A model generated the notes under the pieces. It did no database searches, was not told where the DNA came from, and worked only from the letters and a program-made list of their open reading frames with translations. This document shows positions 30,776 through 63,330 of a stretch of DNA of 64,000 nt, piece by piece; within the stretch, counting starts at the first letter, position 1, and the number at the start of each line of letters is the position of its first letter. Both the position numbers and the translations under genes were made by a program. The DNA comes from an uncultured Planctomycetaceae bacterium (GTDB lineage Bacteria; Planctomycetota; Planctomycetia; Pirellulales; Pirellulaceae): the NCBI GenBank assembly GCA_903863885.1, contig CAIPEB010000395.1, positions 1 to 64,000 of the forward strand, in the 5' to 3' direction.

Positions 30776-31276
30776 GGCTCGCTCCTTCGATAGTCCCTCG
30801 AGTTGCACGTCCGTGGAAACGCCCCGCGGAAAGACAGCGCCAAGTCCGTTTCCGTCGTTAACGTCCGCCTTAAGGTAAGACTGGTAAGCAGGAGCGTCAA
30901 CCAAACGGCGCGCTTGCCCGCTTCAAGTTCCGCGAAGGGGCGTTTCTCTCATGTCAGGATTCCCTGGTCAACCTAGTTTGTACAAACTTCGGAGAGTTTG
31001 TGAAGCCTAGGAGGCTCGGATCGAGCGGGAAGAGTCTTTGTTCTGCGCAGAGTGGGCTTGGTGTGGTCGCCCAGAGCAGAGAGCGGATTGAGAGCGGATT
31101 TTGCTTACCAGTCACCGATCGCGCAGCAACGATCGGGTGTCAGGCAATCGACAAGGCCCGGAGAGAATCGGGCGAGAAGAGATGCCGGATGCCGGTAGGC
31201 CAAAGCTGGATTGGTGTTTGTTTTGCTCCGGACTCCAGACTCCAGACTCCAGACTCCAGACTCCAGACTCCAGACC
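30776..31276. other. Intergenic region with promoter of giant gene and repeat copy E
   Basis: About 500 bp between two minus-strand genes: the start of the giant subtilase-like gene and the stop of the BBP7 gene. The left part must hold the giant gene promoter; a TTTGTACAAAC palindrome lies near 30976. No gene is convincing. The composite repeat occupies 31181-31275. Confidence 0.55.
31181..31275 (+). repeat. Composite dispersed intergenic repeat, copy E (most complete)
   Basis: GATGCCGGATGCCGGTAGGC, then TGGATTGGTGTTTGTTTTGC, then seven tandem seven-base units (TCCGGAC once, then TCCAGAC). The middle block is shared with copy F and partly with copy B. The array ends 1 bp before the stop codon of the BBP7 gene. 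Confidence 0.88.
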
Positions 31277-41400: not shown

Positions 41401-42368
41401 GGCGGGAATGGAACGAGATCGGCAAGAACGCGGGACTGCCGGGTCCCCGTTGGGTCGCCTCGATCGAAGCCTCGCGATTCGAGGAAGGCCGCGTCTATGT
41501 GGCGTTCGACGGCCACCGCAGCAATGACGATCAGGCCTATGTGTACGCGTCGGAGGATTTCGGGCAGACCTGGAAATCGTTGCGGGCCAACTTGCCGCAG
41601 GGATCCACCCGCTGCCTGCGCGAGGATCTTGTGAATCCGAACCTGTTGTTTCTCGGGACCGAATTCGCGGCATTCTGCTCGCTTGACCGCGGTCAGAGTT
41701 GGAACAAGATGAACGCGAACCTTCCGACCGTGGCCGTCCACGAGCTTGCATTGCACCCGGTCCGCGGGGAACTGGTCGCCGCAACGCACGGGCGGAGCTT
41801 ATGGGTCTGCGACATTTCCGCGCTTCGCCAGGTTCGCCCCGAGCACCTTTCGGGCAAGCCGGTTCTATTTGCTCCGGAGAAGGTCATTCGCTGGCAGCGT
41901 CAACCTCACCGCGGTACGACCAATCGGGCCTTTGTCGGAGAGAATCCGCCTTCGGGCGCCCAGATTTACATTGCGCTGCCCGGGCAGGCGGGAAAGGCAT
42001 CGCTGAAGATCCATGATATCGAAGGCCGGATCGTGCGCGAGTTGCGAGTCCCGCGCGAGGCGGGAATGCACCGCGTGTCCTGGGACCTCGAGCGCAACCC
42101 GCCGAAATCCGGCCGCTCCGGTTCCGAGTCTCGCAAGTCCGCCGGTGAGGCCAAGCAAGTGAAGGGCGAACCCCGCGGCGCCGCTCCGCTGGGGAGCTAC
42201 CGTCTTGAACTCGTTGTCGATGGATTTTCCTCTGCCCAGATCCTCGAAATTGAAAGAGATCCGTCCGCTCCCGCGGATGCGGTGAGCGGCGAGGACGGAG
42301 ACGCTTCGGAGGACTTCGAGGAGCGTGAACGCGAGGAGGCACGCGGCACGCTGTGGTTTGACGACTGA
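38460..42368 (+). CDS. Secreted VPS10/BNR-type beta-propeller protein with three internal PDZ domains
   Basis: A 1302-residue exported protein. Residues 1-27 are a signal peptide (LSALLSIWIGLAITCVRGAE), and 28-110 are Pro/Ala/Lys/Glu-rich. The first half of a sortilin-like propeller covers about 120-400, with BNR signatures GVYKSTDGGKTWQHMG, GVFKTTDGGTNWERV and GLYKTGDGGRTWRKL. Three PDZ domains follow at about 402-485, 492-580 and 585-669, each with a GxxA-type loop such as SPAAKAGVQAGDLL. The second propeller half is about 690-1130 (GGVYRSSDAGETWVRV, ALWVTRDGGREW). The C-terminus has a FlgD-like Ig module (SLKIHDIEGRIVREL, APLGSYRLELVV) and an acidic tail. Enzymatic activity is not evident. 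Probably periplasmic or surface-attached. Confidence 0.88.
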   Translation: MTISSSARRLSALLSIWIGLAITCVRGAETPPAEKPAESPAPAPAAKEPEKKADAKKPEEKKAEEKEEPRPGQSSEGDQLLGRIQEKLRDLAEEVGSLRGAASRPSEAPATPPVVPADAKVTLPESWLKAISWRCIGPANMGGRVVDIAVNENDPSTFWFATASGGLLKTTNNGISLEHQFDRQSTVSIGAVAVAPSDPNTVWVGTGESNPRNSVSYGDGVYKSTDGGKTWQHMGLNETFQVGRIVIHPQDPKIVYVAALGRLYGPNERRGVFKTTDGGTNWERVLYADDRTGAVDLRMHPTNPEVLIAALWQRQRDGFDSWPGNEVPKPDGYNGYDPFVKWGPNSGLYKTGDGGRTWRKLTQGLPPGNIGRIGVDWHRKNPNVLYAVVDGEHYGKGPKPMDVFFGVVGADEADKIRVTQVLPESPAAKAGVQAGDLLTELNGQSVVSFDKLLEQLREKQPGQSVKLKFLRGSDAKEVDVALVARPESLGGEPSRVWLGVTGETREGKATLTQIVPDGPAAKTGLEIDDVIAAVDEKPVPGFNELMDAVRARQAGEKLKLQILRGAETKTVELTLENRPGAPERTDVYLGVQGQDAPGGARITEVTEGGPAEKAGLRADDVVQAVGDKPIANYAALSEQIRARKAGEELRMKVKRGDQVIDVAAALELRPGANRPYANGLGGQNPNQQDLQGSKGPEYGGVYRSSDAGETWVRVNSLNPRPMYFSQVRVDPNDENYVYVLGISQYISSNGGATFSEEFGKAVHADGHAMWVDPRDGRHSIIGTDGGTYVTYDRGSHWDHLNHAAIGQFYHVAISLKEPYWVTGGLQDNGTWMGPSRGSSGRGPVNEDWFAVAGSDGFMCRVDRDDPDLVYYSAQDGNMGRRNLRTGEQKDIRPERPKGKPAYRFNWNTPFLLSSHNSRIFFAAGNFVFRSLDRGDDLQVISPEITLTRRGSASALAESPRNEKVLYVGTDDGALWVTRDGGREWNEIGKNAGLPGPRWVASIEASRFEEGRVYVAFDGHRSNDDQAYVYASEDFGQTWKSLRANLPQGSTRCLREDLVNPNLLFLGTEFAAFCSLDRGQSWNKMNANLPTVAVHELALHPVRGELVAATHGRSLWVCDISALRQVRPEHLSGKPVLFAPEKVIRWQRQPHRGTTNRAFVGENPPSGAQIYIALPGQAGKASLKIHDIEGRIVRELRVPREAGMHRVSWDLERNPPKSGRSGSESRKSAGEAKQVKGEPRGAAPLGSYRLELVVDGFSSAQILEIERDPSAPADAVSGEDGDASEDFEEREREEARGTLWFDD

Positions 42369-46926: not shown

Positions 46927-47035
46927 CGAAAAGGTTCCCGCCTGCCGTTATCCCGCCTCGTCCGACCGACGACGATCGCTGCGGCAACTGGTCCGTTTTA
47001 CGAGCTGAACCAGGGACGTTTGAGGAGTTCCTGCC

Positions 47036-50000
47036 ATGTACGTCTTTGCGAAATTCAATTGGTCTTTGATGCTGGCCCTGGCCGTGTCGTGTGATGCGAT
47101 ATGCGCAGTTGGGGCGGAGCCGGCCCCCGCACCCGCCCCGGCTCCCGCGCCCGCGGCGAAACCCGAAGCCAAACCGGCTCCCGCGCCTGCTGCTGCGCCC
47201 GAGGCGAAGCCGGCGGCAGCCGCTGAAGCGAAGCCGGCAACTCCGCCAGCGCCCGAGGCCAAGCCCGCGACGGCCGCTCCCGCCGCCACTCCCGCGCCTG
47301 CTCCTGAGGCAAAGCCTGCGGCAGCTCCGGACGCGAAACCGGCTCCCGAGGCGAAACCGATCAAGGTGCAGTTCTCGTTTCGGTTCCAGAAGTGGACCGA
47401 GGTGCTCGACTGGTTCGCGCAGCAGGCGGAATTGAGTCTGGTCATGGACAGCCCTCCGCCGGGGACTTTTAACTACACGGACAACAAAGAGTTCACGGTG
47501 ACCGAGGCGTTGGACCTGCTCAACAGCGTCCTGCTCACCAAGGGCTACACGCTGATCCACGAGGGGCGGATGCTGCGGGTGCTGAACACGGCGGATGGAA
47601 TTCCGCCCGATGTGGTACCTCGCGTCAAGCTCGACGAACTCGACAAGCGCGGGAACTTTGAACTCGTGACGGTCGAGTTTCCGCTCGGCCGGCGCGACAC
47701 CGACGCGGTGCGGTCCGAGATCAGCCATCTGCTCAGTCCTCTGGGCACCGTGGTGGTACTGCCTCAGACCAAGCAGATCATCGTGACGGAGCGAGCCGGA
47801 ATGATGCGGGCAATTGCCGCGATCGTTCAGGGCATACCCGAAACTCCGGTCCCGGCGACTCCTCCCACGCCCGAGAAATCGGCGCTGCAGATTTATCCTC
47901 TGAAAAACTCGGATCCGACCAAGGTATCGGAAATCCTGCTGAAGCTGTTCCCGAGCGTCACGATGGTCGCCGACACCCAGGCGAAGCAGGTGAGCGCGTA
48001 CGGGACGCCGTCGCAGCACGCCGAGATCAAGAAGATGATCGACCAGATGGAGGCCAACGAACCTCCGGATGTCCAGCCGCGACTGGAGGTCTACCCGCTC
48101 ACCGCACACCTGATGAATGCGACGGCCATTCGCCGCCGGCGCGCGGAGCCGGGCACTTTCGAGGCGACGCTGTTGTCGCAGCTGCAGGCCGCGGCTCCCG
48201 AGATGCGGTTGCTGGTGGACTCCGCCGCGCGCAAGCTGCTTGCCTGGGGTACGCCCAAGCAGCACGAGTCGCTGAAGCAGGCGCTGGACAAGCTTGCCGA
48301 GCAGTCGAAGCCGGATGCTCCGAAGCAGGTCGAGACCTACCGCATCACCAAGATGGATCCGACGAGCGTCCAGACGCTGTTGACGTCTCTGTTCCCGCTC
48401 ATCGACGTGACGCTGGACGCGACAACTCGGACGATCGTGGTTTCCGCGACGGCGGAAGACCAGCTGGCCGTAAAGAACCTGATTGACCAGCTGCAGCCCG
48501 CGACGCCGCGGGCCGATTCGCCCGAGCTGCGGATCCTGCCTCTGAAGGAAACGCCGCCGACGAATCTGACCACCGTTCTGAAGGATCTCGTCCCGTCGGC
48601 GAGCGTCACGTTGGCTGCCGACGGTCTGCGGCTTCTGGTGGTGGCTTCTCCCACGGATCAGGAGACGATCAAGAAGACGGTGGATCAACTCGAACAACCG
48701 GCGACTCCGAAAGTGCGGGCGACGTTGAAGTACTATCCGGTCACGCCTTCGCAGCGCACGCGGTTCGACGCGATCTTGAAGGACCTGACCACCGACCTGC
48801 CGGGCCTGCGCATCATCGAGGACGCGGAGCCGGGCGAATTGGCGGTCTGGGCCAGGCCCGAGCAGCACGAGGTCCTCGCGCAGATCCTGGAAGAACTCAA
48901 GCACGACGTGCCCGCGGATCAACAGTACCAGCTGTTCGTGCATCCCATCAACGCGGAGATCGCCGTCCGGATCACGACGGTCCTGACGGAACTGTATCCC
49001 AAGCTGAAGATCATCAAGGAGCCGGGCGCCGATCGAATGCTGCTGTGGACCAGCCCGCCGCAGTTCGAGAAGATCAAGAAGACGCTGGAAGAACTGCAGA
49101 GCCAGGCGGCGTCGGAACAGACGCCCGAGTTTCGCAGCCTCAGTCTGCGGGGTGTGGACACGACCACGGCCATGACTCAGCTTCAAGCCGCGGTCCCCGA
49201 GGCCAAGCTGTCGCTCGACAAGGACAGCGGGAAGATGATCGTCTGGGCCACGCCGCGCAATCACGAGAAGCTCGCCAAGGCACTCGAGCAGCTCACGGGG
49301 GCCATGGCGACAACCTCCCAGAGGCAGCTGGAGTTGTTCGCGCTGAACAAGGTCGAGCCGACGGCTGCCCTGTCGCTGCTGCAGTCCCTGTTGCCCGAGG
49401 CCAAGCTGACGCTGGATTCCGCCAACAGCAAGATCATCGCCCTGGGGTCGCCGGAAGATCTCCGCGCGGTTCGCGCACTGCTGGACCAGTTGCGTGAGGG
49501 GGGCAAGGACACGAATGCGGCGGTGCTCGAGTTCTATCCGCTGGAGCGCGCCCTCGATGCGGCTACCCAGGCGGTGATCACGAAGCTCGTCCCCGCTGCG
49601 CAGCTCACCGTGCTTGAGGATCGACTGCTGGTCGTGGCTTCGCCGGACGATCAGGAAAAAGTAAAGAAGACACTGACGGACGTGATTTCCGAGACGCCCG
49701 TGAACCAGCGCAGCACGCTGGTCATCTATCCCGTCACGGCCGCCCAGAAGAAGCGCATCCAGGCGGTTGCCACCTCCCTGACCAAGGAGCTGCCCGGCGT
49801 GCAGCTCATTTCGGACAGCGAGCCGGGCGAGTTGGCGGTCTGGGCCAAACCGGCCCAGCACGCGGTCTTCCGCGGCATTCTCGAGCAATTCGTGGGAGAT
49901 TCGGCGGAAGGCGAGCAGGAGCAACTGGTCGCCTACCAGCTGCAGGTGGCCGATGTGACCAAGGCGAAGGAAATCCTGACCGAAATGTACCCGACGGCCA

Positions 50001-53000
50001 AGTTCGTCGTGGACGTGGAAGCCAACCGCCTGATGGTCTGGGCCAAGTCGAAGCAGCAGGAGTCGATCAAGGCGTCGGTGACCGAACTGGATCAGGGCAC
50101 GCCGGTCGAGCGCAAAGAAAAGTTCATGATCTATCCGATGCCCGACGCGGATGGCCGCACCCTGCTGCCGCTGCTGCAGGAGCTTGCGCCCAAGGCCAAG
50201 GTGAGCTACGACCCGGTGGCTCGCACGCTGACCGTCTGGGCAAAACCCAAGGACCAGCAGGCGATCTCCGAAATCGTCAAGCAGGCCGAGGCGGGCGGCG
50301 ACGCGGCCGTGCGATCCGGGGTTCAGGTCTATCCCGGTCCGATTGAAAACCTCGACGATACGGTCACTCTGCTGCGGGCGCTGACTCCCAACGCGAAAAT
50401 CGTCGTCAGCACAGCGACCGGTTCGTTGACCGCATTCGCGACGCCGCGCGAACAGGAAACCATTAAGTCGACTCTCGAGCAGCTCAAAGCCAAAGGCGCC
50501 GATGCCGAGCGGTCGGTCCAGGGCTTCAAGCTCGATTCCATGACGGCCGAGCGCGCGATCCCGCTGCTGCAGGCCGTGGTGCCCGGCGTCACGTTCGCTC
50601 CCCGGCGCGATCCGCAGAAGTTCATCGCGTGGGGGCGGAAGGACCAGCTCGAAAAAGTCACCAAAATCGTCGAACAGATCCAGTCCGAGGGCGGCTATGA
50701 AAAGCTGAGCGTGAAGTCCTACACGCTCAAGTCAACGAGCGCCTCGGTGATCCTGCCGATGCTGAGCCGCGGAGTGCCGGCCGCGAACATTACGCCCGGC
50801 GCCGATCCCCGCGAACTGATCGTGTGGGCCACCGAAGCCGACCACAAGTCGATCGCCGACGCGATTCAGGAACTCGACGCGAGCTACGAGCAGGGCGCTT
50901 TGACCATCTATCCGGTCAAAGGCCTGACCGGGTCCGCCGCCGTCGCACTGCTCGCAACCGCCGTGCCCGCCGCAAAGGTCAGCGCCAGCGCCGATCCGCA
51001 GAAGATCCTCGTCTGGGCCAAGCCCGAGGATCACCAGATCGTCAAGGAGTTGCTCGACCAGATCGAACAACAGGGCAAGGCAAGCGACCGCGTGCTGACG
51101 GTCTATCCGTTGAAGGACGCCGACATGGACGCCGTGCAGACGGCGCTCAAGCCGGTGCTCGGCACCGATGTGGACGTGGTGAAGGACACGGTCCGCAAGA
51201 GCCTCGTTGTCTGGGCGACTCCCGCCGATCACGAGAAGATCAAGACGACCCTCGAACAGCTGATCAAGGATCTGCCGGAACCCGAAAAAGACGTGGCGCG
51301 CATTTACCACTTCGAAAACGCGGCCGCGTCCACCGCTTATTACGCCATCTATCGGCTGCTGCCCAAGGCGACCGTTGCCCTGGACTCGGTCGGAAACAAC
51401 GTGATCGTGACCGGCAGCGCCAAGGACCACGAGACGCTGGCCTCGACGCTGGCCGAACTGGACAAGGTCGGCAATTCGCAGGGAAACGTGAAGATCTATC
51501 CGTTGAAGTCCGCCGATCTGGCCAGCGCGTACAGCCTCCTGCAGACGCTGTTCCGCCAGTATTCCGACGTGACGTTCACGATGGATACGAAGAACCGCAG
51601 CATCATGGTCCTGGCTCCCGAGGAGCGCCAGGCCAACGTCCAGAAGGTCATTGCGCAGCTCGAAGAACAGGGGACCGCGCAGAGCCGCATGCTGATGGTT
51701 TATCCGCTGAAGGATGCCGACCTGGACGCGATGCAGGCGGCGATCAAGTCCGTGACAGGAACGGATACCGAAGTCGTCAAGGACACGATCCGCAAATGTC
51801 TCGTGGTCTGGGGCACGGCGACGGATCACGAGAAGATCAAGACGACGCTTGCTCAGCTGGTCAAGGATCTTCCCGAGCCCGAAAAGGAAATCGCAAAGGT
51901 CTATCACTTCCAGAACGCCGCGGCGACAGCCGCGTACTATGCGATCTACCGTCTGCTGCCCAAGGCCATGGTGTCGCTCGATTCGGTCGGCAACAACGTG
52001 GTGGTGACCGGGTCCGCGAAGGATCACGAATTGCTGGCCACCACGCTTGAGCAGCTTGAGCAGTTGGGCGGATCGCAGGCCAATGTGCAGATCCACCCGC
52101 TGAAAAACGCGGACGTGACCGCAACATACACGATTCTGCAGACGATCCTCCGCCAGTATGCGGACGTGACGCTGACGCCGGACCCCCGTTCGCACAGCAT
52201 CGTGGCGGTGGCGCCGCCCGAGCGTCAGAAGCAGATCGAGAAGATCATCCAGCAGTTCGACGAGCAGGGCTCGCGCGAGGACCGCGTCATCACGGTTTAT
52301 CCGCTGAACACGGAAGACGCGACGACCTTCACTAAGCTGCTGACGCCCTTCCTCGAGCAGGGCGTGACGTACTCGCAGGACGCTCGCCGCAAGAGCCTGA
52401 TTGTCTGGGCCACCGCGGAACAGCACGCCAAGATCCGCGACGCGTTCCAGCAGCTGGCTGTCGAACTGCCCGAGCCTGAAACCCTCTCGACCGAGGTTTA
52501 TCATTTCAAGAATGCAACGGCGTACGCGGCTTACACAGCGCTGCCGCGGCTCGTGCCGGAAGCGATCATCGGCCTCGACACGACCGGCAACAACCTGGTG
52601 ATCACCGCCAGCTCCAAGGACCACGCGACCATCCGCGCGTCGGTGGAACAGCTGGACAAGGCAGGGGCCTCCGATACGCCCGAGGCCAAAGTCTATCCGT
52701 TGAAGACCTCCGACCCCGCTTCGATCGTGACTTTGCTGCAGACCCTGTTTACCGGCGAGCGAAAGGTCAGTTTCACCGCCGACCTGAAGCATCGTTCCGT
52801 GGTGGTCGCGGCGCCGGCCGAGCGTCAGCCATTTATCCAGCAGGTGATCGATCAGGTTGAAGCCGGGGCCGCCGGCGGTGTCGCCGCGACGACGAAGGTC
52901 TATCGATTCAAGGTCGCCAGCCCCTATGCGGCGTATCTGGCGCTGTATTCGCTGCTGACCAACGCGCGCATGGGGTACGACCTGACCGCCAAGACTCTGG

Positions 53001-56000
53001 TCGTCACCGGTTCCCCCGAGGACCACGAGACCGTGGCGGCCGTGGTCAAGGACATGGAAGCCGCGGGCGCCGAGAAGCAGGCGGTCATTGAGGTCTATCC
53101 GCTCGACTCGGCGGATCCGACCAGCGCGGCTACCGCGCTGCAGGCCACTTTCCGCACCGACGATGCAGTGCGGATTTCGGTGGACACGAAGACCAAGGCC
53201 ATCGTTTCCGTGGCTCCCGCCGAACAACAGAAACAGATCGCCGAGCTGATCAAGCGGATCGAAGCGGCCGGCCCGGCCGCCAGCGCATTGAAGACCCAGG
53301 TCTACCATCTGAAGAACTCGACGGCCTACGCGGCTTACCTCGCGCTGCCGCGCCTGGTGCCCGACGCGATCATCGGCCTCGACACGACCGGCAACAACCT
53401 CGTGGTTACGGCAGTCGAAAAGGACCACGCGGCCGTTCGCGAGACGGTCGAACAACTGGACAAGGCGGGGGCGTCCGACACGGCCGAGGCCAAGGTTTAT
53501 CCGCTGAAGTCCTCGGATCCCGCTTCGCTGGTGACACTGCTGCAGACGCTGTTCACCGGCGAGCGCAAGATCAGCTTCACCGCCGATCTGAAACGTCGTT
53601 CGGTCGTGGCCGCGGCTCCCGCGGACCGCCAGCCGTTCATCAAGCAGGTGATCGAGCAAATCGAAGCGGGGGCGGCGGAAGGTACTGCCGCCAAGACGGT
53701 TGTCTATCGATTCAAGAACTCGAGCCCCTACGCGGCCTACCTCGCGCTGTACACGCAGTTTCCCAACTCGCGCATGGGGTACGACCTGACGGCCAAGACT
53801 CTGGTCGTCACCGGTTCGGCGGAAGACCAGGAAGGGGTTGCGGCAGTCGTGAAGGACATGGAAGAGGCGGGCCTGGAAAAGCAGGCGGTTGTCGAGGTCT
53901 ATCCGCTCGCCACGGCCGACCCGACCAGCGTGGCTACCGCACTGCAGACCACGTTCCGCGCCGACGATACGGTACGGATTTCGGTGGACACCAAGACCAA
54001 GGCCATCGTCTCGGTGGCTCCGGCGGAACAGCAGAAACAAATCGCCGAGATGATCAAGCGGATCGAGGCCGCGGGGCCGGCTGCGGGCGACCTGAAGACC
54101 GAGGTCTACCACTTCAAGAATGCCACGGCCTCTGCGGCCTACACGGCGCTGCCGCGGCTGGTGCCCGATGCGATCATCGGCCTCGATACAACGGGCAACA
54201 ACCTCATCGTCACGGCGGTCGAGAAAGATCACGCGACGATCCGTGCGTCGGTGGAGCAGTTGGACAAGGCGGGGGCCGCCGATACGGCTGAGGCCAAGGT
54301 GTATCCGCTGAAATCCTCGGATCCCACGACGATTGTGACGCTGCTGCAGACGCTGTTCACCGGGGAACGGAAGATCAGCTTCACCGCCGATCTGAAGCAT
54401 CGGGCCGTGATCGCTGCGGCTCCGGCGGACCGCCAGCCGGTCATCAAGCAGGTGATCGAGCAGATCGAAGCAGGGTCGGCCGACGGTGCGGCCACGACCA
54501 CGCAGGTCTATCGGCTCAAGAACTCCAGCCCCTACGCGGCGTACCTCGCGCTGACCTCGCTGCTGACCACCGCCCGCATGGGCTACGACCTGACCGCCAA
54601 GACCCTCGTCGTGACCGGCACCGCCGAAGATCATCAGACGGTCGGAGCCGTCGTCAAGGACATGGAGGCGGCGGGCGAGGAGAAGAAAGCGACCGTCCAG
54701 GTTCATCACCTGGCGACCGCCGATCCGACCAGCGTGGCCACCGCGCTGCAGGCATCGTTCCGCGCGGACGATACGGTGCGGATCTCGGTGGATGCGCGTA
54801 GCCGTTCGATCGTTTCGGTTGCTCCCGAAGAGCAGCAGAAACAGATCACGGAGATGATCAAGCAGATCGAGGGCGCAGGCCCCGGGGCCGATGCGTTGAA
54901 GACCGAGGTCTACCACTTCAAGTTCAGCACGCCTGTCGCGGCCTACCGCGCACTCACGACGCTGTTGCCCAACGTCCAGCTTGGTTACGACGTCGAGGGC
55001 AAGAACCTGGTGGCAACCGCTACCCCCGAAGAGCACAAGACCATCAAGGCGCTCGTCGATCGCATGGAGCAGTCGAGCGAGGCCGATCGCGGCACAATGC
55101 AGCACTATCGCCTCCAGACGGCCGAGCCGCGGGCGGTCTACAACGTGCTGCAGGGACTGTACCAGTCCGACTCGACCGTCCGGGTCTCGCTTGATATCGC
55201 CAACCGCGCGGTCGCCGTCGTCGCCTCGCCCGAGCAGCAGAAATTCATCAAGGACATGATCGACCAGATGGAGGCTCAGGATGCCTCCCGCGCCGACTGG
55301 GCCACTCAGGTCTACCACTTCAAGGCCGCGTCGCCCGATGCGGCCATGGAAACCCTGCAGCGGATCGTGCCCAACGCGAGGCTCGTCGTCGACACCCGCG
55401 GCGCGAATCTCGTCGTGACCGCGAGTGAAGAAGACCACGCCACGGTCAAAACGACCGTCGACGAAATGGACAAGGCGGGGATGGAAGCTCGCGGCAGTCT
55501 GCAGGTCTATCCGCTGAAGAACGGGAATCCCAAGAGCGTCTACGATGCTCTGAGCAGGCTGTACGTCTCCGATCGGGAGACCCGGATTTCGTTCGACGAG
55601 CGCAGCGGTGCGATCGTCGTGGTCGCGACCCCTGAGCAGCACGAGTCGATCCGCACCGTCATTGAGCAACTCGAGGCTCAGGGATCGGGTCAGAAAGGCT
55701 GGTCGACCCAGGTTTATCGTCTGAAGAAGACCGATCCGCGAGCCGCGCAGCAGTCGCTGACCGTGCTGTTGCCCGCCGCGGAAATCGCGTTTGACGTCCG
55801 CAGCCGCACGCTGATCGTGACCGCGAGCGAAGAAGACCAGAAGACGGTCAAGTCGGCCGTCGACCAGATGGACCAGGCAGTTACGCTGAACGAACCCGCG
55901 GCGCGCGTCTATCCGGTGAAGACCGCCAACCCGGCCGACGTGCTGCGGGTGCTTCAGTCGCTGTTCGCCGCGGACCCCGCCGTCCAGATCTCCGCGGATC

Positions 56001-58285
56001 CGCGCAAGGGGACCGTCGTGGCGGTCGCCGAACCGGATCAGCAGAAGCTCATCGAGACCATCATCCAGCAGGTCGAATCGGCCGTGCCGGCGGGCGGAGC
56101 CCTCGAGACCAAGGTGTATCACTTCCAGGAAGGCAGCCCGCTCGCCGCCGTCCAGGCTCTGACGTCGCTCCTTCCCAACGCGAAAATCGCGGCCGATCCG
56201 GCCGGCAAGAACCTCGTTGTCACTGGGACGCAGGATGATCAGCAGGTGGCCAGGTCCACAGTCGATGAAATGGAACAGGCAAGCCTCAAGGACCGCACTT
56301 CGGCCCGCATCTATCGCCTGAAGTCCGCTGACGTCGAGGATGCCTTCGATGTGCTCCAGGCACTCTATCGAACGAGCGCGACGACGCGCGTTTCACTCGA
56401 TCGAAGCCAGCAGGCCATCGTGGTTGTCGCTTCTCCTGTGGAACACGAGATCATCCAGCAGCTTGTGGAAGATATGGACAAGCGAGGCGGGGCGGGCACG
56501 GAAAACAACGTTGTCTCCTATGACCTCGGGGAATCGGACGGCAGAGCCGTGCTGCAGACGCTCCAGGAACTGCTCACCAAGGAAGTCAAAGCGGGCACCG
56601 TGCAGCTTTCACTCCTGGCACAGGACAACAAACTGGTCGCCGTGGCCCGCGAGAAGGAACACGAGACCATCCGCAAAACCGTCGAAGAACTGAAAACCAA
56701 AGACCGCGAACTCGAAGTCTTCCAGCTTCAGGCTGTCGATCCGTTCACCGCCGAACTGGCGATCGAAAGCCTCTTCGGCACCGAGGGCCTCACCAGCGCG
56801 AATGCGCCGTCGATCGAGTCGGATGCCGCGACCCAGCAGCTCTACGTGCGCGGGACCCGCGCTCAGTTGGAGAACATCCGCGACCTGCTGGTCAAAATGG
56901 GCGAGACCCAACTCGTTCAAGCCGGCCCTTTGAAGACCGGTGCGGGGACGCTGCGCGTCGTTCCGTTCCAGGGAGATGCGAGGTCGGCGATGGAGGAAAT
57001 CCAACGGATCTGGCCGCAGTTGCGCAAGAACGAGATCCGCGTGGTGACGCCCTCCGCCGAACCGCGGACGCTGCAGTCGCCCCGTTCCACCACCCCCGAT
57101 CGAAAGAAAACCGACCCTGTCAAGAAACCCGAAGCGGCGCCTTCCCCGAAGTCGAACGGCGCCCACCGTGCAACGCCGCCGAACCAGAATCTGCACAGTC
57201 AGGCCCCCTGGGGCCGAACCGCCAACGCATGGGTGCCGTGTTCGCTGAACGCAGCCGAAGAAGCGGCGTCTGCGGAGACGGGACCTGGGGAGGACAGGCC
57301 GACGTCGGGCGCCGGCGAGGCAAAAGCAGCGGGAGATGCAAAAGCGACGGACTCGGCCGAAAGGCCGTCGGACCCGCCTGCGGCTCCATCCGACGCAATG
57401 CTCCGCGATGCGAATCAAGCCACGAGGGAAGAAGACCAGGACGAGAAGAACGACCAGAAGAAGGAGGCTCCGGCCGTACCGCCCGGGACGCCGGATTCCG
57501 CGACTCCTTCCCCCGTCGTCATCATGCTCGGCGACGGGAGTATCACGATCGCGTCACAGGATCAGGAAGCCCTGAATCAGCTCGAGGCCCTGCTGGCCGC
57601 ACTGGCCCGCGGCACGCGCGGCGTAGGGCGGAACTTCGTGGTGTTCAGCCTGCGAAACACGTCCGCAGTCACCGCCGCTGAGACGATCGAGCGTCTGTTT
57701 CGACAGATCAGCGCCGGAGGCGGCGGCGTCCGCACCGGGACCGGCAAAGTCGTCGCCGTTCCCGATGAACGGTTGAATGCGATTCTGGTCTACGCCAACA
57801 AATCGGATCAGGCGGTCGTCGAGAACCTCGTGCGCATCCTGGACTCGGCCGAGATTCCCGACTCTCTGGCGCTCGTGCGCCCGAAGCTGATCCCCATCAA
57901 GAACACGCGGGCCTCGGAAATCGAAACGGTGTTGAGAAACGTCTATCGCACGCAGCTCAGCATGGGCGGCGGGCGGCGGGCGATGGAAATCCCGCGGGGC
58001 GTGCCATCGGAGATCGTCTCCGTGTTGCGCCAGTTGAACGCGGCCAATTCCGGGCCCCTGTTGAACCTCAGCGTCGATGAACAGACCAACACGCTGATCG
58101 TGCTGGCACCGACGGACCTCGTCGATGAGATCTCCGAACTGGTTGCCCAGTTGGACGAGGCCGCGCTGCAGGAGAACCCGGTCCAGACGATGCGGATTCT
58201 CTCCCTGAAAAAGATCAACGCATCGCGACTCGAACAGTCGCTCGATGAACTGCTGAGGTCGCGGCGGCGGCGTGCGGCACCGTAG
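47036..58285 (+). CDS. Giant exported protein with about 49 tandem secretin-N-domain-like modules
   Basis: A 3749-residue exported protein. Residues 1-27 are a signal peptide (WSLMLALAVSCDAICAVGAE) and about 28-110 a Pro/Ala/Lys linker. Residues about 112-185 form an STN-like domain (FQKWTEVLDWFAQQAELSLV). From about 205 the protein is a nearly unbroken chain of about 49 modules of some 65 residues, each with a strand such as VYPLKNAD, a helix, a central pair D-x-x-x-x-x-V-V-x-A and E-D-H-x-x-I-x-x-x-V-x-Q-L, as in the NolW/secretin-N fold. Residues about 3340-3488 are a charged linker; two further N-domain-like modules end the chain (to 3718). No secretin pore segment is visible, and the end is RRRRAAP. 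GAGGAG precedes the ATG. It may stack as a long periplasmic tube or wall; this is inference. Confidence 0.88.
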   Translation: MYVFAKFNWSLMLALAVSCDAICAVGAEPAPAPAPAPAPAAKPEAKPAPAPAAAPEAKPAAAAEAKPATPPAPEAKPATAAPAATPAPAPEAKPAAAPDAKPAPEAKPIKVQFSFRFQKWTEVLDWFAQQAELSLVMDSPPPGTFNYTDNKEFTVTEALDLLNSVLLTKGYTLIHEGRMLRVLNTADGIPPDVVPRVKLDELDKRGNFELVTVEFPLGRRDTDAVRSEISHLLSPLGTVVVLPQTKQIIVTERAGMMRAIAAIVQGIPETPVPATPPTPEKSALQIYPLKNSDPTKVSEILLKLFPSVTMVADTQAKQVSAYGTPSQHAEIKKMIDQMEANEPPDVQPRLEVYPLTAHLMNATAIRRRRAEPGTFEATLLSQLQAAAPEMRLLVDSAARKLLAWGTPKQHESLKQALDKLAEQSKPDAPKQVETYRITKMDPTSVQTLLTSLFPLIDVTLDATTRTIVVSATAEDQLAVKNLIDQLQPATPRADSPELRILPLKETPPTNLTTVLKDLVPSASVTLAADGLRLLVVASPTDQETIKKTVDQLEQPATPKVRATLKYYPVTPSQRTRFDAILKDLTTDLPGLRIIEDAEPGELAVWARPEQHEVLAQILEELKHDVPADQQYQLFVHPINAEIAVRITTVLTELYPKLKIIKEPGADRMLLWTSPPQFEKIKKTLEELQSQAASEQTPEFRSLSLRGVDTTTAMTQLQAAVPEAKLSLDKDSGKMIVWATPRNHEKLAKALEQLTGAMATTSQRQLELFALNKVEPTAALSLLQSLLPEAKLTLDSANSKIIALGSPEDLRAVRALLDQLREGGKDTNAAVLEFYPLERALDAATQAVITKLVPAAQLTVLEDRLLVVASPDDQEKVKKTLTDVISETPVNQRSTLVIYPVTAAQKKRIQAVATSLTKELPGVQLISDSEPGELAVWAKPAQHAVFRGILEQFVGDSAEGEQEQLVAYQLQVADVTKAKEILTEMYPTAKFVVDVEANRLMVWAKSKQQESIKASVTELDQGTPVERKEKFMIYPMPDADGRTLLPLLQELAPKAKVSYDPVARTLTVWAKPKDQQAISEIVKQAEAGGDAAVRSGVQVYPGPIENLDDTVTLLRALTPNAKIVVSTATGSLTAFATPREQETIKSTLEQLKAKGADAERSVQGFKLDSMTAERAIPLLQAVVPGVTFAPRRDPQKFIAWGRKDQLEKVTKIVEQIQSEGGYEKLSVKSYTLKSTSASVILPMLSRGVPAANITPGADPRELIVWATEADHKSIADAIQELDASYEQGALTIYPVKGLTGSAAVALLATAVPAAKVSASADPQKILVWAKPEDHQIVKELLDQIEQQGKASDRVLTVYPLKDADMDAVQTALKPVLGTDVDVVKDTVRKSLVVWATPADHEKIKTTLEQLIKDLPEPEKDVARIYHFENAAASTAYYAIYRLLPKATVALDSVGNNVIVTGSAKDHETLASTLAELDKVGNSQGNVKIYPLKSADLASAYSLLQTLFRQYSDVTFTMDTKNRSIMVLAPEERQANVQKVIAQLEEQGTAQSRMLMVYPLKDADLDAMQAAIKSVTGTDTEVVKDTIRKCLVVWGTATDHEKIKTTLAQLVKDLPEPEKEIAKVYHFQNAAATAAYYAIYRLLPKAMVSLDSVGNNVVVTGSAKDHELLATTLEQLEQLGGSQANVQIHPLKNADVTATYTILQTILRQYADVTLTPDPRSHSIVAVAPPERQKQIEKIIQQFDEQGSREDRVITVYPLNTEDATTFTKLLTPFLEQGVTYSQDARRKSLIVWATAEQHAKIRDAFQQLAVELPEPETLSTEVYHFKNATAYAAYTALPRLVPEAIIGLDTTGNNLVITASSKDHATIRASVEQLDKAGASDTPEAKVYPLKTSDPASIVTLLQTLFTGERKVSFTADLKHRSVVVAAPAERQPFIQQVIDQVEAGAAGGVAATTKVYRFKVASPYAAYLALYSLLTNARMGYDLTAKTLVVTGSPEDHETVAAVVKDMEAAGAEKQAVIEVYPLDSADPTSAATALQATFRTDDAVRISVDTKTKAIVSVAPAEQQKQIAELIKRIEAAGPAASALKTQVYHLKNSTAYAAYLALPRLVPDAIIGLDTTGNNLVVTAVEKDHAAVRETVEQLDKAGASDTAEAKVYPLKSSDPASLVTLLQTLFTGERKISFTADLKRRSVVAAAPADRQPFIKQVIEQIEAGAAEGTAAKTVVYRFKNSSPYAAYLALYTQFPNSRMGYDLTAKTLVVTGSAEDQEGVAAVVKDMEEAGLEKQAVVEVYPLATADPTSVATALQTTFRADDTVRISVDTKTKAIVSVAPAEQQKQIAEMIKRIEAAGPAAGDLKTEVYHFKNATASAAYTALPRLVPDAIIGLDTTGNNLIVTAVEKDHATIRASVEQLDKAGAADTAEAKVYPLKSSDPTTIVTLLQTLFTGERKISFTADLKHRAVIAAAPADRQPVIKQVIEQIEAGSADGAATTTQVYRLKNSSPYAAYLALTSLLTTARMGYDLTAKTLVVTGTAEDHQTVGAVVKDMEAAGEEKKATVQVHHLATADPTSVATALQASFRADDTVRISVDARSRSIVSVAPEEQQKQITEMIKQIEGAGPGADALKTEVYHFKFSTPVAAYRALTTLLPNVQLGYDVEGKNLVATATPEEHKTIKALVDRMEQSSEADRGTMQHYRLQTAEPRAVYNVLQGLYQSDSTVRVSLDIANRAVAVVASPEQQKFIKDMIDQMEAQDASRADWATQVYHFKAASPDAAMETLQRIVPNARLVVDTRGANLVVTASEEDHATVKTTVDEMDKAGMEARGSLQVYPLKNGNPKSVYDALSRLYVSDRETRISFDERSGAIVVVATPEQHESIRTVIEQLEAQGSGQKGWSTQVYRLKKTDPRAAQQSLTVLLPAAEIAFDVRSRTLIVTASEEDQKTVKSAVDQMDQAVTLNEPAARVYPVKTANPADVLRVLQSLFAADPAVQISADPRKGTVVAVAEPDQQKLIETIIQQVESAVPAGGALETKVYHFQEGSPLAAVQALTSLLPNAKIAADPAGKNLVVTGTQDDQQVARSTVDEMEQASLKDRTSARIYRLKSADVEDAFDVLQALYRTSATTRVSLDRSQQAIVVVASPVEHEIIQQLVEDMDKRGGAGTENNVVSYDLGESDGRAVLQTLQELLTKEVKAGTVQLSLLAQDNKLVAVAREKEHETIRKTVEELKTKDRELEVFQLQAVDPFTAELAIESLFGTEGLTSANAPSIESDAATQQLYVRGTRAQLENIRDLLVKMGETQLVQAGPLKTGAGTLRVVPFQGDARSAMEEIQRIWPQLRKNEIRVVTPSAEPRTLQSPRSTTPDRKKTDPVKKPEAAPSPKSNGAHRATPPNQNLHSQAPWGRTANAWVPCSLNAAEEAASAETGPGEDRPTSGAGEAKAAGDAKATDSAERPSDPPAAPSDAMLRDANQATREEDQDEKNDQKKEAPAVPPGTPDSATPSPVVIMLGDGSITIASQDQEALNQLEALLAALARGTRGVGRNFVVFSLRNTSAVTAAETIERLFRQISAGGGGVRTGTGKVVAVPDERLNAILVYANKSDQAVVENLVRILDSAEIPDSLALVRPKLIPIKNTRASEIETVLRNVYRTQLSMGGGRRAMEIPRGVPSEIVSVLRQLNAANSGPLLNLSVDEQTNTLIVLAPTDLVDEISELVAQLDEAALQENPVQTMRILSLKKINASRLEQSLDELLRSRRRRAAP
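51092..52285 (+). repeat. Tandem 597-bp in-frame duplication (two units) in giant gene
   Basis: Units start at 51092 and 51689, and the next homologous start is at 52286, so both are exactly 597 bp (199 residues, three modules). Each opens with a module of the type VYPLKDAD, continues with IYHFENAAA/VYHFQNAAA and closes with an IYPLKSAD-type module. Confidence 0.9.
52493..54904 (+). repeat. Tandem 804-bp in-frame repeat (three units) in giant gene
   Basis: Homologous modules open at 52493, 53297, 54101 and again at 54905, giving three consecutive units of exactly 804 bp (268 residues, four modules). Unit openings read EVYHFKNATAYAAY, QVYHLKNSTAYAAY and EVYHFKNATASAAY. The copies are highly similar, so they look recent. 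Confidence 0.93.
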
Positions 58286-58310: not shown

Positions 58311-59276
58311 TCACTCGCGCCGCCGGCGCCGTTCGCCTTTCGGTGCGTCGTCGCCTCTGGGGGATTCCTTAGATGCGTCCTTGGCCGTTTCTTTGGATGA
58401 ATCGGCCGAGTTTTCCGGCTTTTTCTCGGGGATTTCGACCTTCGGCCGGATGAGCTGCGGCTTGCGGCCCAGGGCCTCGTCCGTCGTGATGACCCCGTCT
58501 CCGTCGCGGTCCAGCTTCTTGAATTCCGCGAGCGAGCTTGCGGTCACCTCGTTCGAATACTCGGCCAACGTGATCTGGCCGTCGCCGTCCTTGTCCTGCG
58601 CGTAGAACCAGGCCGGCAGTCCCCCGGGCAGCCTCCCGGCGGGCACAAAGAACTTGGTATCGCGGCGTCGCGCCACCGGCTTGGGCGGCTGAGCTTCGGC
58701 GGGCGGACTGGCTGCAGCCGCTGGGTCAGCGGGCGTTGCCGGAGCGGGGGCGGCTGCGGCGGCCGTCGGAGCTGCCTGCGGGTTGTCCGCTCCCGGCTTG
58801 GGCGGCGGCAGCTGGTTCGCCGAGGATTTCGGCTGCAGCAACGGCGGCTCCTCGGCAACGGTGACTTCCGGGAAGACAACTCGCAGCTGCCGCTTCGACG
58901 CGAAACTCGTTACGTACGCTTCGAACTCGTCGCGGGTAATCACTCCGTCTCGATTGGTGTCGAGCAGTTCCGGATGGCCCTGCATCCCGGCCCATTCGGC
59001 CTGCTGAAGTTGCCCGTCTCCGTTCTTGTCGTACGCGCGAATGACACGCTCCACGTATCGTTGGACCTTTGCTGTCGCCGTCGGTCCGGAAGGGCGAACC
59101 GGCGGGCGGCTCGGCGCGGACGCCAGCGATTGTTCGGCCGAATTCAGGCCTTCGCAGGGCAGGAATGCGGCGGTCGAGAGCAGAAAGAAAGCCAGAAGAA
59201 ACCACGGATCACAAAGAACTTGCGTCGCGATAGGGCGTCGAGACAGCATTTTGGGGTTGCATTTGAGATCGCACAT
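58311..59276 (-). CDS. Exported EF-hand protein
   Basis: A 321-residue exported calcium-binding protein. A hydrophobic signal segment lies at about 22-40 (LCDPWFLLAFFLLSTAAFL). Four EF-hand loops are visible: DKNGDGQLQQAEW (from 83), DTNRDGVITRDEF (from 106), DKDGDGQITLAEY (from 228) and DRDGDGVITTDEA (from 256). A long Pro/Ala-rich linker of about 70 residues separates the two pairs. The tail is Lys/Glu/Arg-rich. The start used is ATG at 59276; ATG at 59249 is an alternative. It sits between the giant repeat gene (convergent, 25 bp apart) and gspE (divergent). Secreted EF-hand proteins are common in planctomycetes; a role with the secretion locus is not shown. Confidence 0.85.
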   Translation of the reverse strand: MCDLKCNPKMLSRRPIATQVLCDPWFLLAFFLLSTAAFLPCEGLNSAEQSLASAPSRPPVRPSGPTATAKVQRYVERVIRAYDKNGDGQLQQAEWAGMQGHPELLDTNRDGVITRDEFEAYVTSFASKRQLRVVFPEVTVAEEPPLLQPKSSANQLPPPKPGADNPQAAPTAAAAAPAPATPADPAAAASPPAEAQPPKPVARRRDTKFFVPAGRLPGGLPAWFYAQDKDGDGQITLAEYSNEVTASSLAEFKKLDRDGDGVITTDEALGRKPQLIRPKVEIPEKKPENSADSSKETAKDASKESPRGDDAPKGERRRRRE

Positions 59277-59659
59277 AGGTTACTTCTCTGCAAATGGCCT
59301 CAATTAAGTGGCCACCCACAAGGAGGGGTGAAGTATTGACTGGCGATGCAAGTGTGTTTAGTATTCTAATCACAGCGGCCGAAACTAGCACACCGCTGCG
59401 ATTGGTTTACGCGATTCGTTTACGCAATCGTTAAGCAGAATGATCCGGCCTTTGGGCGACACCGACTCGCCCCTGAAATCACGCCCTCCGACCTCCGAAT
59501 TTTTATCCTGCCTGCATCATCCCTGAGTCGGTCGTCCGGATCGAAATTGGAAACTCGCTGCAAGACTTGAAGTCTTACCGCTGGCTGGCGGCAGCTTCCG
59601 CGTTGATGCTGCGTACCTGTCCAGGGGTAATCATTGTCATAGTCATCAATAGGGATGCC
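59277..59659. other. Divergent spacer upstream of gspE
   Basis: About 380 bp between the EF-hand gene and gspE. It contains the promoter candidate at 59336-59364 and an AGGAGGGG stretch near 59321. A TGGCC/GGCCA inverted repeat lies just upstream (59295-59314). No gene is seen. Confidence 0.5.
59336..59364 (+). promoter_or_regulatory. Sigma-70-type promoter candidate for the gsp genes
   Basis: TTGACT (59336-59341), a 17-bp spacer and TAGTAT (59359-59364) match the -35/-10 consensus at 5/6 and 4/6 positions. It lies about 295 bp before the gspE start, so a long leader is implied. Confidence 0.5.
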
Positions 59660-61351
<1,692 letters not shown>

Positions 61352-61426: not shown

Positions 61427-62647
61427 ATGCCTGAATTCAGCTACACAGCACGAACGCTCGCGGGAGAGCAGGTGACCGGCGCGATAGTCGCCGAGAACCG
61501 GCGCGATGCGCTTACGGCGCTGTTCGATCGCTCGCTCTTCCCGATGAAGGTCGAGAGCAGCGAGTCGGTCGGGGCAAAGTGGCAGCGGATCATGTCGACT
61601 CGCCGCCGCATCAAGACGGACATTATTGCGACGAACCTGACGCAGTTGGCGGACCTGCTGCAGAACGGCGTTCCGCTGCTCACGTCGCTGCGGCTTCTCT
61701 CCGAACAATCGACGCATCCGGGGCTGGCCGAGGTGCTGCGCGATGTTCATGACCGGGTTGCGGACGGCTTGTCGCTGGACAAGGCGATGGTGCGGCACCC
61801 GCACGTATTCGACGAATTGACGGCGAGCATGGTGCGGGCCGGTTCCGAAGGCGCGTTTCTCGAGGAGGCGCTGCAGCGGACGGCCGACTTCATGCAACTG
61901 CAGCAGGAACTCAAGAGCCGCCTGGTGGGGGCCATGGCCTATCCGGCGTTTCTCGCCGTGACGGGGTTCGTGGTCACGCTGGTGCTGGTGGTGTTTTTCG
62001 TGCCGAAATTCGCAGGGCTGTTTCAGAGCCTCGAGCGAGCCGGCGGATTGCCGGCGGCCACCGTGGCTTTGCTGGCGTTGAGCGATTTCCTGAGGGACTA
62101 CGGGCTGTTCGTCGGCATCGGCGCTTTCATGCTGATTTCCTGGGTGCGGCGCTGGTTGCGCAAACCTCAGGGCCGCCTTCTGGCCGACCGCTGGAAACTG
62201 CGGATTCCGGTGGCGGGACCGATCTTCCTGAATTATGCCGTGTCGCGATTCTGCCGCGTGCTCGGCACTCTGCTGCGCAACGGCGTTCCGCTGCTCAAGT
62301 CGCTGGAAATCAGCAGCGAGTCGGCGGGGAACCTGGTGCTGGCCAAGGCGATTACCGCTTCGGCGGAAAATATATCCACGGGCAACACGCTCTCTCGTCC
62401 GCTGGCCAATTGCGGACTGATTCCCAAGGCGGTCATGGCGATGATCAGCGTGGCGGAAGAATCCAACAATCTCGACAACGTGCTCGTGAATATCGCCGAC
62501 GGGATCGATCGCAAGGCGGCTCGCCAGCTGGACATCATGGTGCGCCTTGTGGAGCCGGCGATGCTGCTGGTGATGGGTACGGTCATCCTGTTCGTGTTGA
62601 CCGCGCTGCTGCTTCCGATTTTCGACATGAGTGCGGCTCTGGGGTGA
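61427..62647 (+). CDS. gspF: Type II secretion inner-membrane platform protein GspF
   Basis: A 406-residue inner-membrane protein starting MPEFSYTARTLAGEQVTGAI, the usual GspF/PilC opening. Two homologous T2SSF domains lie at about 65-190 (QLADLLQNGVPLLTSLRLLS) and 268-395 (VLGTLLRNGVPLLKSLEI). Membrane helices are at about 170-195, 215-240 and 375-400 (LLVMGTVILFVLTALLLPI). It anchors the GspE ATPase to the membrane. The start codon lies 75 bp after the gspE stop, and gspG starts 71 bp after its stop. Confidence 0.95.
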   Translation: MPEFSYTARTLAGEQVTGAIVAENRRDALTALFDRSLFPMKVESSESVGAKWQRIMSTRRRIKTDIIATNLTQLADLLQNGVPLLTSLRLLSEQSTHPGLAEVLRDVHDRVADGLSLDKAMVRHPHVFDELTASMVRAGSEGAFLEEALQRTADFMQLQQELKSRLVGAMAYPAFLAVTGFVVTLVLVVFFVPKFAGLFQSLERAGGLPAATVALLALSDFLRDYGLFVGIGAFMLISWVRRWLRKPQGRLLADRWKLRIPVAGPIFLNYAVSRFCRVLGTLLRNGVPLLKSLEISSESAGNLVLAKAITASAENISTGNTLSRPLANCGLIPKAVMAMISVAEESNNLDNVLVNIADGIDRKAARQLDIMVRLVEPAMLLVMGTVILFVLTALLLPIFDMSAALG

Positions 62648-62718
62648 GCCGTCCGATGGGAACCGCTGCCGCGTCGAATCCCGCTCGACCGGCGGCCAAG
62701 GGGTGAAGGAACTTGACG

Positions 62719-63330
62719 ATGAAGAAGACCGCAAACAACCGCAACCTGCCAAGGCAGGGCTTCACATTGGTCGAGATGCTGGTGGTGCTGGCCATCCTCG
62801 TGCTGCTCGTCGGCATGGTGGCGCCTCGCGTGCTCAAATCTCAGAAGAAGGCTGATGCGAGCAACGCCAAGGCTCAGATCGGCATGTTCCGCACATGCCT
62901 CGACCGTTACGCAATCGACATGAAGACCTATCCGTCAACCGAACAGGGCCTGAATGCCCTGATCAAGAAACCGGAAGGCGATGCCGGCTCGGCAGAACCC
63001 GCCGCGGCTGCCGCGCCGGTCGACGGCGAAAAGAGCGGAGCGGGCGGCGAATCGTCTTCCGGTCCGAGTTCCGGCTGGGACGGACCGTACGTCAATCAGG
63101 ACAGCATCCCCAAGGATCCCTGGGGTAATGCATATCAATACGAGTATCCGCCTACCCATGGACAGGGTGAATACCCGGACATCTGGTCGCTCGGACCGGA
63201 TGGCCAGGATGGCACGGAGGACGACATCGTGAGTTGGAGTAACACCGATGGCAACAGAGACGCAGCATCAGGAAGTGACAGCCAATCGCCACCAAGACCT
63301 GCACCGGCCAAGGGCGGTGCCAATGAATAA
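62719..63330 (+). CDS. gspG: Type II secretion major pseudopilin GspG
   Basis: A 203-residue prepilin-type protein. The leader MKKTANNRNLPRQG is followed by the cleavage site between G14 and F15 and the helix FTLVEMLVVLAILVLLVGM with Glu5 of the mature protein. The pseudopilin core includes FRTCLDRYAIDMKTYPSTEQG, WDGPYVNQDSIPKDPWGNAYQY and IWSLGPDGQDGTEDDIVSW. Compared with usual GspG (about 140 residues) it has a roughly 33-residue Gly/Ser/Ala insertion before WDGPY and a disordered C-terminal tail. GAAGGAACT precedes the ATG. It overlaps the next gene by eight bases. Confidence 0.94.
   Translation: MKKTANNRNLPRQGFTLVEMLVVLAILVLLVGMVAPRVLKSQKKADASNAKAQIGMFRTCLDRYAIDMKTYPSTEQGLNALIKKPEGDAGSAEPAAAAAPVDGEKSGAGGESSSGPSSGWDGPYVNQDSIPKDPWGNAYQYEYPPTHGQGEYPDIWSLGPDGQDGTEDDIVSWSNTDGNRDAASGSDSQSPPRPAPAKGGANE

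Follow-up and report, generated by a model that had tools for sequence, protein, structure and literature searches.

The giant, pore-less chain protein described here is, on balance, probably one half of a split secretin of a type II secretion system (T2SS), namely the half on the inner-membrane side, and would bridge a deep periplasm together with a separate, headless GspD. Its gene lies in a stretch of 64,000 nucleotides from an uncultured Planctomycetaceae bacterium, the whole of which is called the window in the following. A split secretin would be a concrete and testable answer to the question of how planctomycetes transport proteins across a possibly very wide periplasm: if this reading is true, the T2SS machine could span two membranes that lie unusually far apart. 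It would also depart from two customary expectations, a pore in every secretin gene and a count of two to six N domains. N domains, N0 and the T2SS are known kinds. Among the titles and abstract openings searched, with few subscription papers covered, we found no published description of a long, pore-less or split planctomycete secretin, and the same holds for a pore-less T2SS-linked chain with up to 48 N modules, a headless GspD partner and fused GspDs that are four to five thousand residues long. Sequence comparisons and structural models support the identity of the modules, the missing pore and the duplication of blocks, and they bring in an N0-N1 head, an adjacent T2SS operon with a headless GspD, a family of variable length and pore-fused counterparts in other lineages, four points that were absent from the first-pass annotation of this DNA.

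The chain gene is a single frame with zero internal stops, and GAGGAG is found at 47022-47027, 8 nt 5' of its ATG. It can be divided as follows.

47036..58285, + strand: pore-less secretin-N chain protein (ATG start, 3749 aa, about 407 kDa)
47036..47119, + strand: predicted N-terminal signal peptide, read by eye (K6, hydrophobic core, VGA/EP)
47117..47350, + strand: Ala/Pro-rich linker, residues 28-105 (45% A, 32% P)
47351..47599, + strand: N0 domain of GspD type, residues ~106-188 (AlphaFold2 head model, 4jtm match, head HMM)
47648..47860, + strand: N1-type domain, second part of the head (HMM and AlphaFold2 head model; 6hcg match)
47882..56908, + strand: 45 N modules in a row, repeating every 66-67 aa (residues 283-3291)
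51092..52285, + strand: older three-module tandem duplication, residues 1353-1551 and 1552-1750 (70.5% DNA identity)
52487..54898, + strand: four-module (804 bp) block in three tandem copies (78-81% DNA identity, dN/dS 0.17)
56945..57049, + strand: first half of an interrupted N module, residues 3304-3338 (by eye)
57050..57490, + strand: Pro/charged low-complexity linker inside the interrupted module, residues 3339-3485
57491..58282, + strand: conserved, apparently pore-free C-terminal end (remainder of the interrupted module, then two N modules that carry loop insertions and a half module to close)

The Pfam model Secretin_N (PF03958) matches the chain with an E-value of 1.9e-262, in 39 stretches at E<=1 and 27 at E<=0.01. 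An HMM built from the chain protein itself found 47 modules and a family HMM 48, and 20 shuffled copies of the chain gave no module at all. Together with the N0 domain, the interrupted module (its second half spanning residues ~3486-3522) and a terminal half module, the last two read by eye, this gives about 49 units, so the number counted by eye in the annotation holds. Self-comparison of the chain gave peaks at 66, 134, 199, 268 and 402 residues, with those at 134 and 268 stronger than that at 66. An assembly or repeat artefact is unlikely: the repeated blocks are just 78-81% identical, and a relative from another MAG (L086) has the same architecture, its frame of 3751 aa, which runs off the 5' contig end, holding 48 modules. 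Two antisense frames of 1000 and 1796 aa opposite the chain gene were taken as shadow frames of the plus-strand gene. Besides that, the chain scores 533.9 bits against TIGR02517, the NCBIfam equivalog for GspD (cut-off 351.35, 17 stretches). As this score exceeds the cut-off despite the absent pore, automatic naming would mislead and call the chain GspD; the false equivalog call is probably caused by summing over repeats.

The annotation had assigned the modules to the NolW/secretin-N pattern, and the Pfam and HMM matches agree on this identity with the predicted fold. An AlphaFold2 model of six modules, computed from 75 of 89 six-module stretches (alignment A4), reached a pLDDT of 91.2 and shows each module as beta-alpha-beta-beta-alpha, while its pTM of 0.47 leaves the geometry between modules uncertain. 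In a Foldseek search of this model against the PDB, ranks 1-37 were all secretins or T2SS/T3SS complexes holding one, with ExeD as best match (3.6e-10) and an enzyme at rank 38; the predicted module fold is thus that of secretin N domains and not a different one. Using VIA-align, residues 100-319 of ETEC GspD, which we take to be N1 to N3, superposed on three consecutive modules over 185 residues (rmsd 5.1, Z 11.6). The head modelled alone reached a pLDDT of 96.4 and a pTM of 0.87; the head alignment (A5) comprised the window protein and 71 of the 79 eligible heads. Its model matches the N0 of ETEC GspD (4jtm) with Z 11.9 over 80 residues (rmsd 2.2) and, with both head domains, PulD in the assembled complex (6hcg) with Z 13.8 over 165 residues (rmsd 4.3). 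For crystallized N-terminal pieces of XcpQ and GspD, both domains fit the head at just 9-11 Å in Foldseek. A PDB sequence search with the whole chain gave no match at 1e-3. Among viral structures, 11 matches were obtained at E<=0.001, all of them uncharacterised or unnamed proteins of giant-virus type with low TM-scores.

The pore-forming segment appears to be missing, as the annotation had stated. PF00263 has no match in the chain at E<=1 and none at E<=0.1 in the last 314 residues searched alone, which speaks against a barrel hidden at the C-terminus. T2SS GspDs carry an S domain with pilotin binding after the pore, and the C-terminal end of the chain was found to consist of N modules. A query with the C-terminal 269 aa found homologues in 33 of 40 relatives, some of them being GspD. 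From these 33 matching genomes, 15 relatives were aligned with the window protein (alignment A1), leaving out G008, which ends at a contig edge, and other weaker matches. Secretin_N was found in 16 of these 16 members and PF00263 in none (0/16), so that the homologues checked share the absence of the pore. In the end-to-end alignment, both ends are common and the number of modules differs; W3326, R3330 and N3332, in the first half of the interrupted module, are invariant. The head is present in all 15 chains with a complete N-terminus, and these chains were found by their C-terminus.

A wider set was obtained from named genomes, with the best 80 of 136 relatives taken, all of them planctomycete records and many named as Pirellulales. 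Our own pore HMM found the pore in 0 of these 80 loci, 56 of which are complete frames; as the loci were fetched by the head, the presence of the head and partly the absence of the pore are not independent of the selection. Exactly 6 modules were counted in 28 of the complete frames and 15-34 in another 25, with the remaining three at 2, 5 and 7. The family consists of a short form with 6 modules and a long form with about 15-48, and the 47-48 modules of the window protein are the most among the complete frames counted. When the head alone was scored, a match at 1e-25 was present in 177 of 248 genomes of the class, where the longest head-bearing frame among the matches listed is that of the window, followed by one of 3265 residues. 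One head in a 2117-aa frame (G224:C2) belongs to a genome placed outside the class; as its bin has 6% contamination and its contig is exactly as long (23772) as that of named locus L127 (CPC9), the contig may be mis-binned, and it was set aside.

Judged from block identities and substitution rates, the array has grown by tandem duplication of blocks that were kept under purifying selection. Modules 24-35 form the three four-module copies of 268 aa each (residues 1818-2085, 2086-2353 and 2354-2621), to which the next block (residues 2622-2889) is merely 53-55% identical. Modules 17-19 and 20-22 represent the older duplication, with a dN/dS of 0.24.

As a next point, the genomic context links the chain to a T2SS. 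The gene is located directly upstream, and on the same strand, of a gspE-F-G operon that ends in gspD.

58311..59276, - strand: EF-hand protein gene, between chain and gspE
59567..61351, + strand: gspE (T2SSE ATPase with MshEN domain)
61427..62647, + strand: gspF
62713..63330, + strand: gspG pseudopilin
C395:70872-74561, on the same contig past the window end: GspD (1229 aa, 7 Secretin_N stretches and PF00263 pore)

Past the window, gspG is followed by pseudopilin-type genes at the H-, I-, J- and K-positions, then by the L and M places and finally by gspD. Pfam assigns the J- and K-position genes to T2SSJ and T2SSK; for those in the H and I places, only a sub-threshold GspH match and N-methylation motifs were found, and of the genes in the L and M places one has a weak PilM match and one has none. 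GspC gave no match at E<=1 in this genome, with the same search positive in three control genomes. The search for gspD that the annotation had suggested hence led to a pore-bearing GspD on the chain's own contig, in the adjacent operon. The same genome (G000) holds two further pore-bearing GspDs, both headless (contigs C608 and C431), and two further chain-like frames, one on C35 (1094 aa) and one on C230 (928 aa), which is cut by the contig end so that a pore could lie beyond. Taken together, these point to perhaps three chain/GspD pairs in one genome. EF-hand matches beside the chain recur in G025, G032, G036, L088, L090, L093, L097 and L099; the EF-hand protein is a possible calcium-linked T2SS partner, and EF-hand genes may also simply be common here.

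Linkage to the T2SS genes is partial across the family. Of the 15 aligned relatives, six (G025, G032, G004, G010, G024 and G036) likewise have gspE downstream of the chain. Among named chains with at least 2.5 kb of downstream sequence, gspE follows within 6 kb on the same strand in 11/23 long and 3/28 short ones, and over the whole stretch covered around the chain, a gsp gene of some kind or a pore-bearing GspD was seen for 21 of the 80 named loci. The chain of Blastopirellula marina lies far from the gsp operon; that of strain DSM 3645 (L110) is of the short form.

The distribution of head and pore supports the split. For the window's order, 13 GspDs with a pore were searched, and N0 was absent from all of them, even at E<=10; three of these come from the window's own genome, and one (G334) is from Blastopirellula marina, a presumed relative. 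The Pfam N0 model is a weak detector: it matches the chain at E 8e-4, under its cut-off, and its negative result for 7 of 7 GspDs of the order is no strong control, since it is also blind to G219 and G134, where our own HMM sees N0. We also used a head HMM made without any chain sequence, for which the heads of 15 secretins with a pore were taken from other classes; the nine shorter outgroup secretins had been chosen for their match to the head profile. This HMM gave 71 bits in the window protein and found the head in 80 of 81 chains, a count which shows the kind of head and not its frequency, because 80 of the 81 were fetched by the head. For all 13 GspDs of the order, it returned no match at the place of the head. 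Within this order, the chain thus carries the head and GspD the pore. The picture differs in family f18 of the same class: N0 is present in 8 of the 9 GspDs taken, several of which came from places already known as N0 matches, although a chain is present as well. The only headless GspD of this family is that of G190, whose chain has 31 modules. Since GspDs with N0 and a chain occur together in f18, both partners can have a head.

Planctomycete lineages outside the window's class hold the same elements in one piece. In a survey of 294 genomes, at least six frames over 4000 aa were found among the matches listed, namely GspDs of 4213-5073 aa in G073, G134, G041, G210, G150 and G289 (loci L183, L167, L214, L215, L184 and L169, respectively). 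They are the longest secretin frames met in this analysis, and each joins the N0-N1 head, 43-49 modules (E<=0.1) and PF00263 in a single frame. For four of them, 37-42 modules were counted at E<=0.01, and in two, Pfam detected the pore together with 40 and 42 stretches of Secretin_N. T2SS genes precede the fused giant in all four surroundings that were read. A tree built from 90 head sequences places the 75 chains in a single clade (support 0.83), within which the long chains form one of their own (0.91; 41 tips, including L147 and L141 with few modules); the fused giants fall into a separate clade (0.89). Repeat length differs too, with 64-69 aa in the chains versus about 75-80 in the fused giants. 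Because of the separate clades and the different module spacing, the two giant arrays look like separate expansions, and the fused giants look like a parallel case rather than a direct ancestor of the chains.

The N0 of a GspD docks at the inner-membrane platform, and its pore sits in the outer membrane. In the fused giants, with N0 at the platform and the pore in the outer membrane, the array must lie between the membranes. By analogy, the chain would take this inner position in the window's order. The exported chain would dock with its N0-N1 head on the inner-membrane platform and continue with about 47 more N modules, and its partner would be the separate, headless GspD of the same operon, with 6-8 N modules and the outer-membrane pore, so that chain and GspD together would do the job of one GspD elsewhere. 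Duplication of three- and four-module blocks would have lengthened the chain so that the machine bridges the deep periplasm. Most likely, the modules would pile up as N rings and so prolong the ring stack of GspD toward the inner membrane, with the substrate or the pseudopilus presumably running inside the chain stack. The contact between chain and GspD, the formation of rings and a reach set by the number of modules are all steps that we infer. Counting against the split secretin are the partial gene linkage, the f18 GspDs that mostly keep N0, the uncertain geometry between modules and the fact that half of the complete named chains (28/56) have just 6 modules. A periplasmic tube or scaffold, as proposed in the annotation, remains the best kind of reading.

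Several other explanations were weighed. The chain could be a flexible tether or ruler: held at the T2SS platform by its head, it would connect to GspD or to the cell wall through loose strands free of rings. Low-complexity linkers near both chain ends, the pTM of 0.47 and the widely varying number of modules would fit. We regard this as unlikely, as the modules are of a kind that forms rings in known secretins, three of them superpose on GspD 100-319 at 5.1 Å, and in the fused giants each pore protomer would presumably carry an array. That the chain belongs to a separate periplasmic machine, as a pore-less GspD paralogue serving its own structure or type IV pili instead of completing GspD, seems improbable: gspE was unseen downstream in 12/23 long and 25/28 short loci, f18 GspDs mostly keep their own N0 and the Blastopirellula marina chain is far from the gsp operon, but GspDs in the window's order lack N0 (0/13), while the chains there carry the head.

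There is little in favor of a role at the cell surface, be it as a fibre, an adhesin or a wall component such as one at the crateriform pits that the annotation had brought up, and none of our results has a bearing on these pits. The length of the chain and its putative signal peptide suit such a role, and most giant bacterial genes encode surface proteins or PKS/NRPS according to the accessible part of PMC5177795; yet the Pfam matches of the chain include no surface-anchor or adhesin domain, and the secretin-type head and the T2SS operon argue against it, which makes it a very remote prospect. Of all readings, we give least credit to a periplasmic substrate-binding or chaperone array of KH-like modules. 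The chain does have weak Pfam matches to the KH family, but these lie where Secretin_N modules score much higher, and the head and the operon need no such reading.

The split secretin can be compared with known systems. With GspD/PulD/XcpQ (TIGR02517, PF03958 and PF00263), the chain shares the N0-N1 head, the N modules and the T2SS operon; it differs in having about 47 N modules beyond the head and neither a detectable PF00263 nor, apparently, anything after it. The giant planctomycete GspDs likewise have the N0-N1 head and 43-49 N modules, with T2SS genes beside four of them, but their pore is fused in frame, their clade is their own and their module spacing is longer. As the annotation had claimed, the chain is far longer than known secretins: the longest stack found, in the part of PMC5745081 available to us, is that of Thermus thermophilus PilQ, with six N rings and 350 Å, read there as spanning a wide periplasm. 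The likeness lies in a long stack of N rings across a wide periplasm, and the difference is that PilQ holds six N domains and the pore in one protein and serves the type IV pilus and DNA uptake. Phage pIV also has N0 and N-type domains and represents the opposite extreme, with one N0, one N3 and the pore (PMC8563730, as far as accessible). Planctomycetes are described as having an enlarged periplasm in the available part of PMC11131199. It is conceivable, though rather doubtful, that about 50 stacked N rings form a conduit on the order of 100-200 nm, a figure extrapolated from the 350 Å of the six-ring PilQ. Such a conduit would cross this enlarged periplasm and would have become longer on two separate occasions, within GspD in one lineage and as a detached, pore-less half in another, with the number of modules acting as a ruler.

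Finally, two other large frames were seen in the window. The one at 22964-30904 on the minus strand (2646 aa) contains NIDO, subtilase (Peptidase_S8) and bacterial Ig/cadherin-like domains and represents a large putative secreted protease, and the one at 38460-42368 on the plus strand encodes a protein of 1302 aa with PDZ domains and sortilin/BNR-type repeats.
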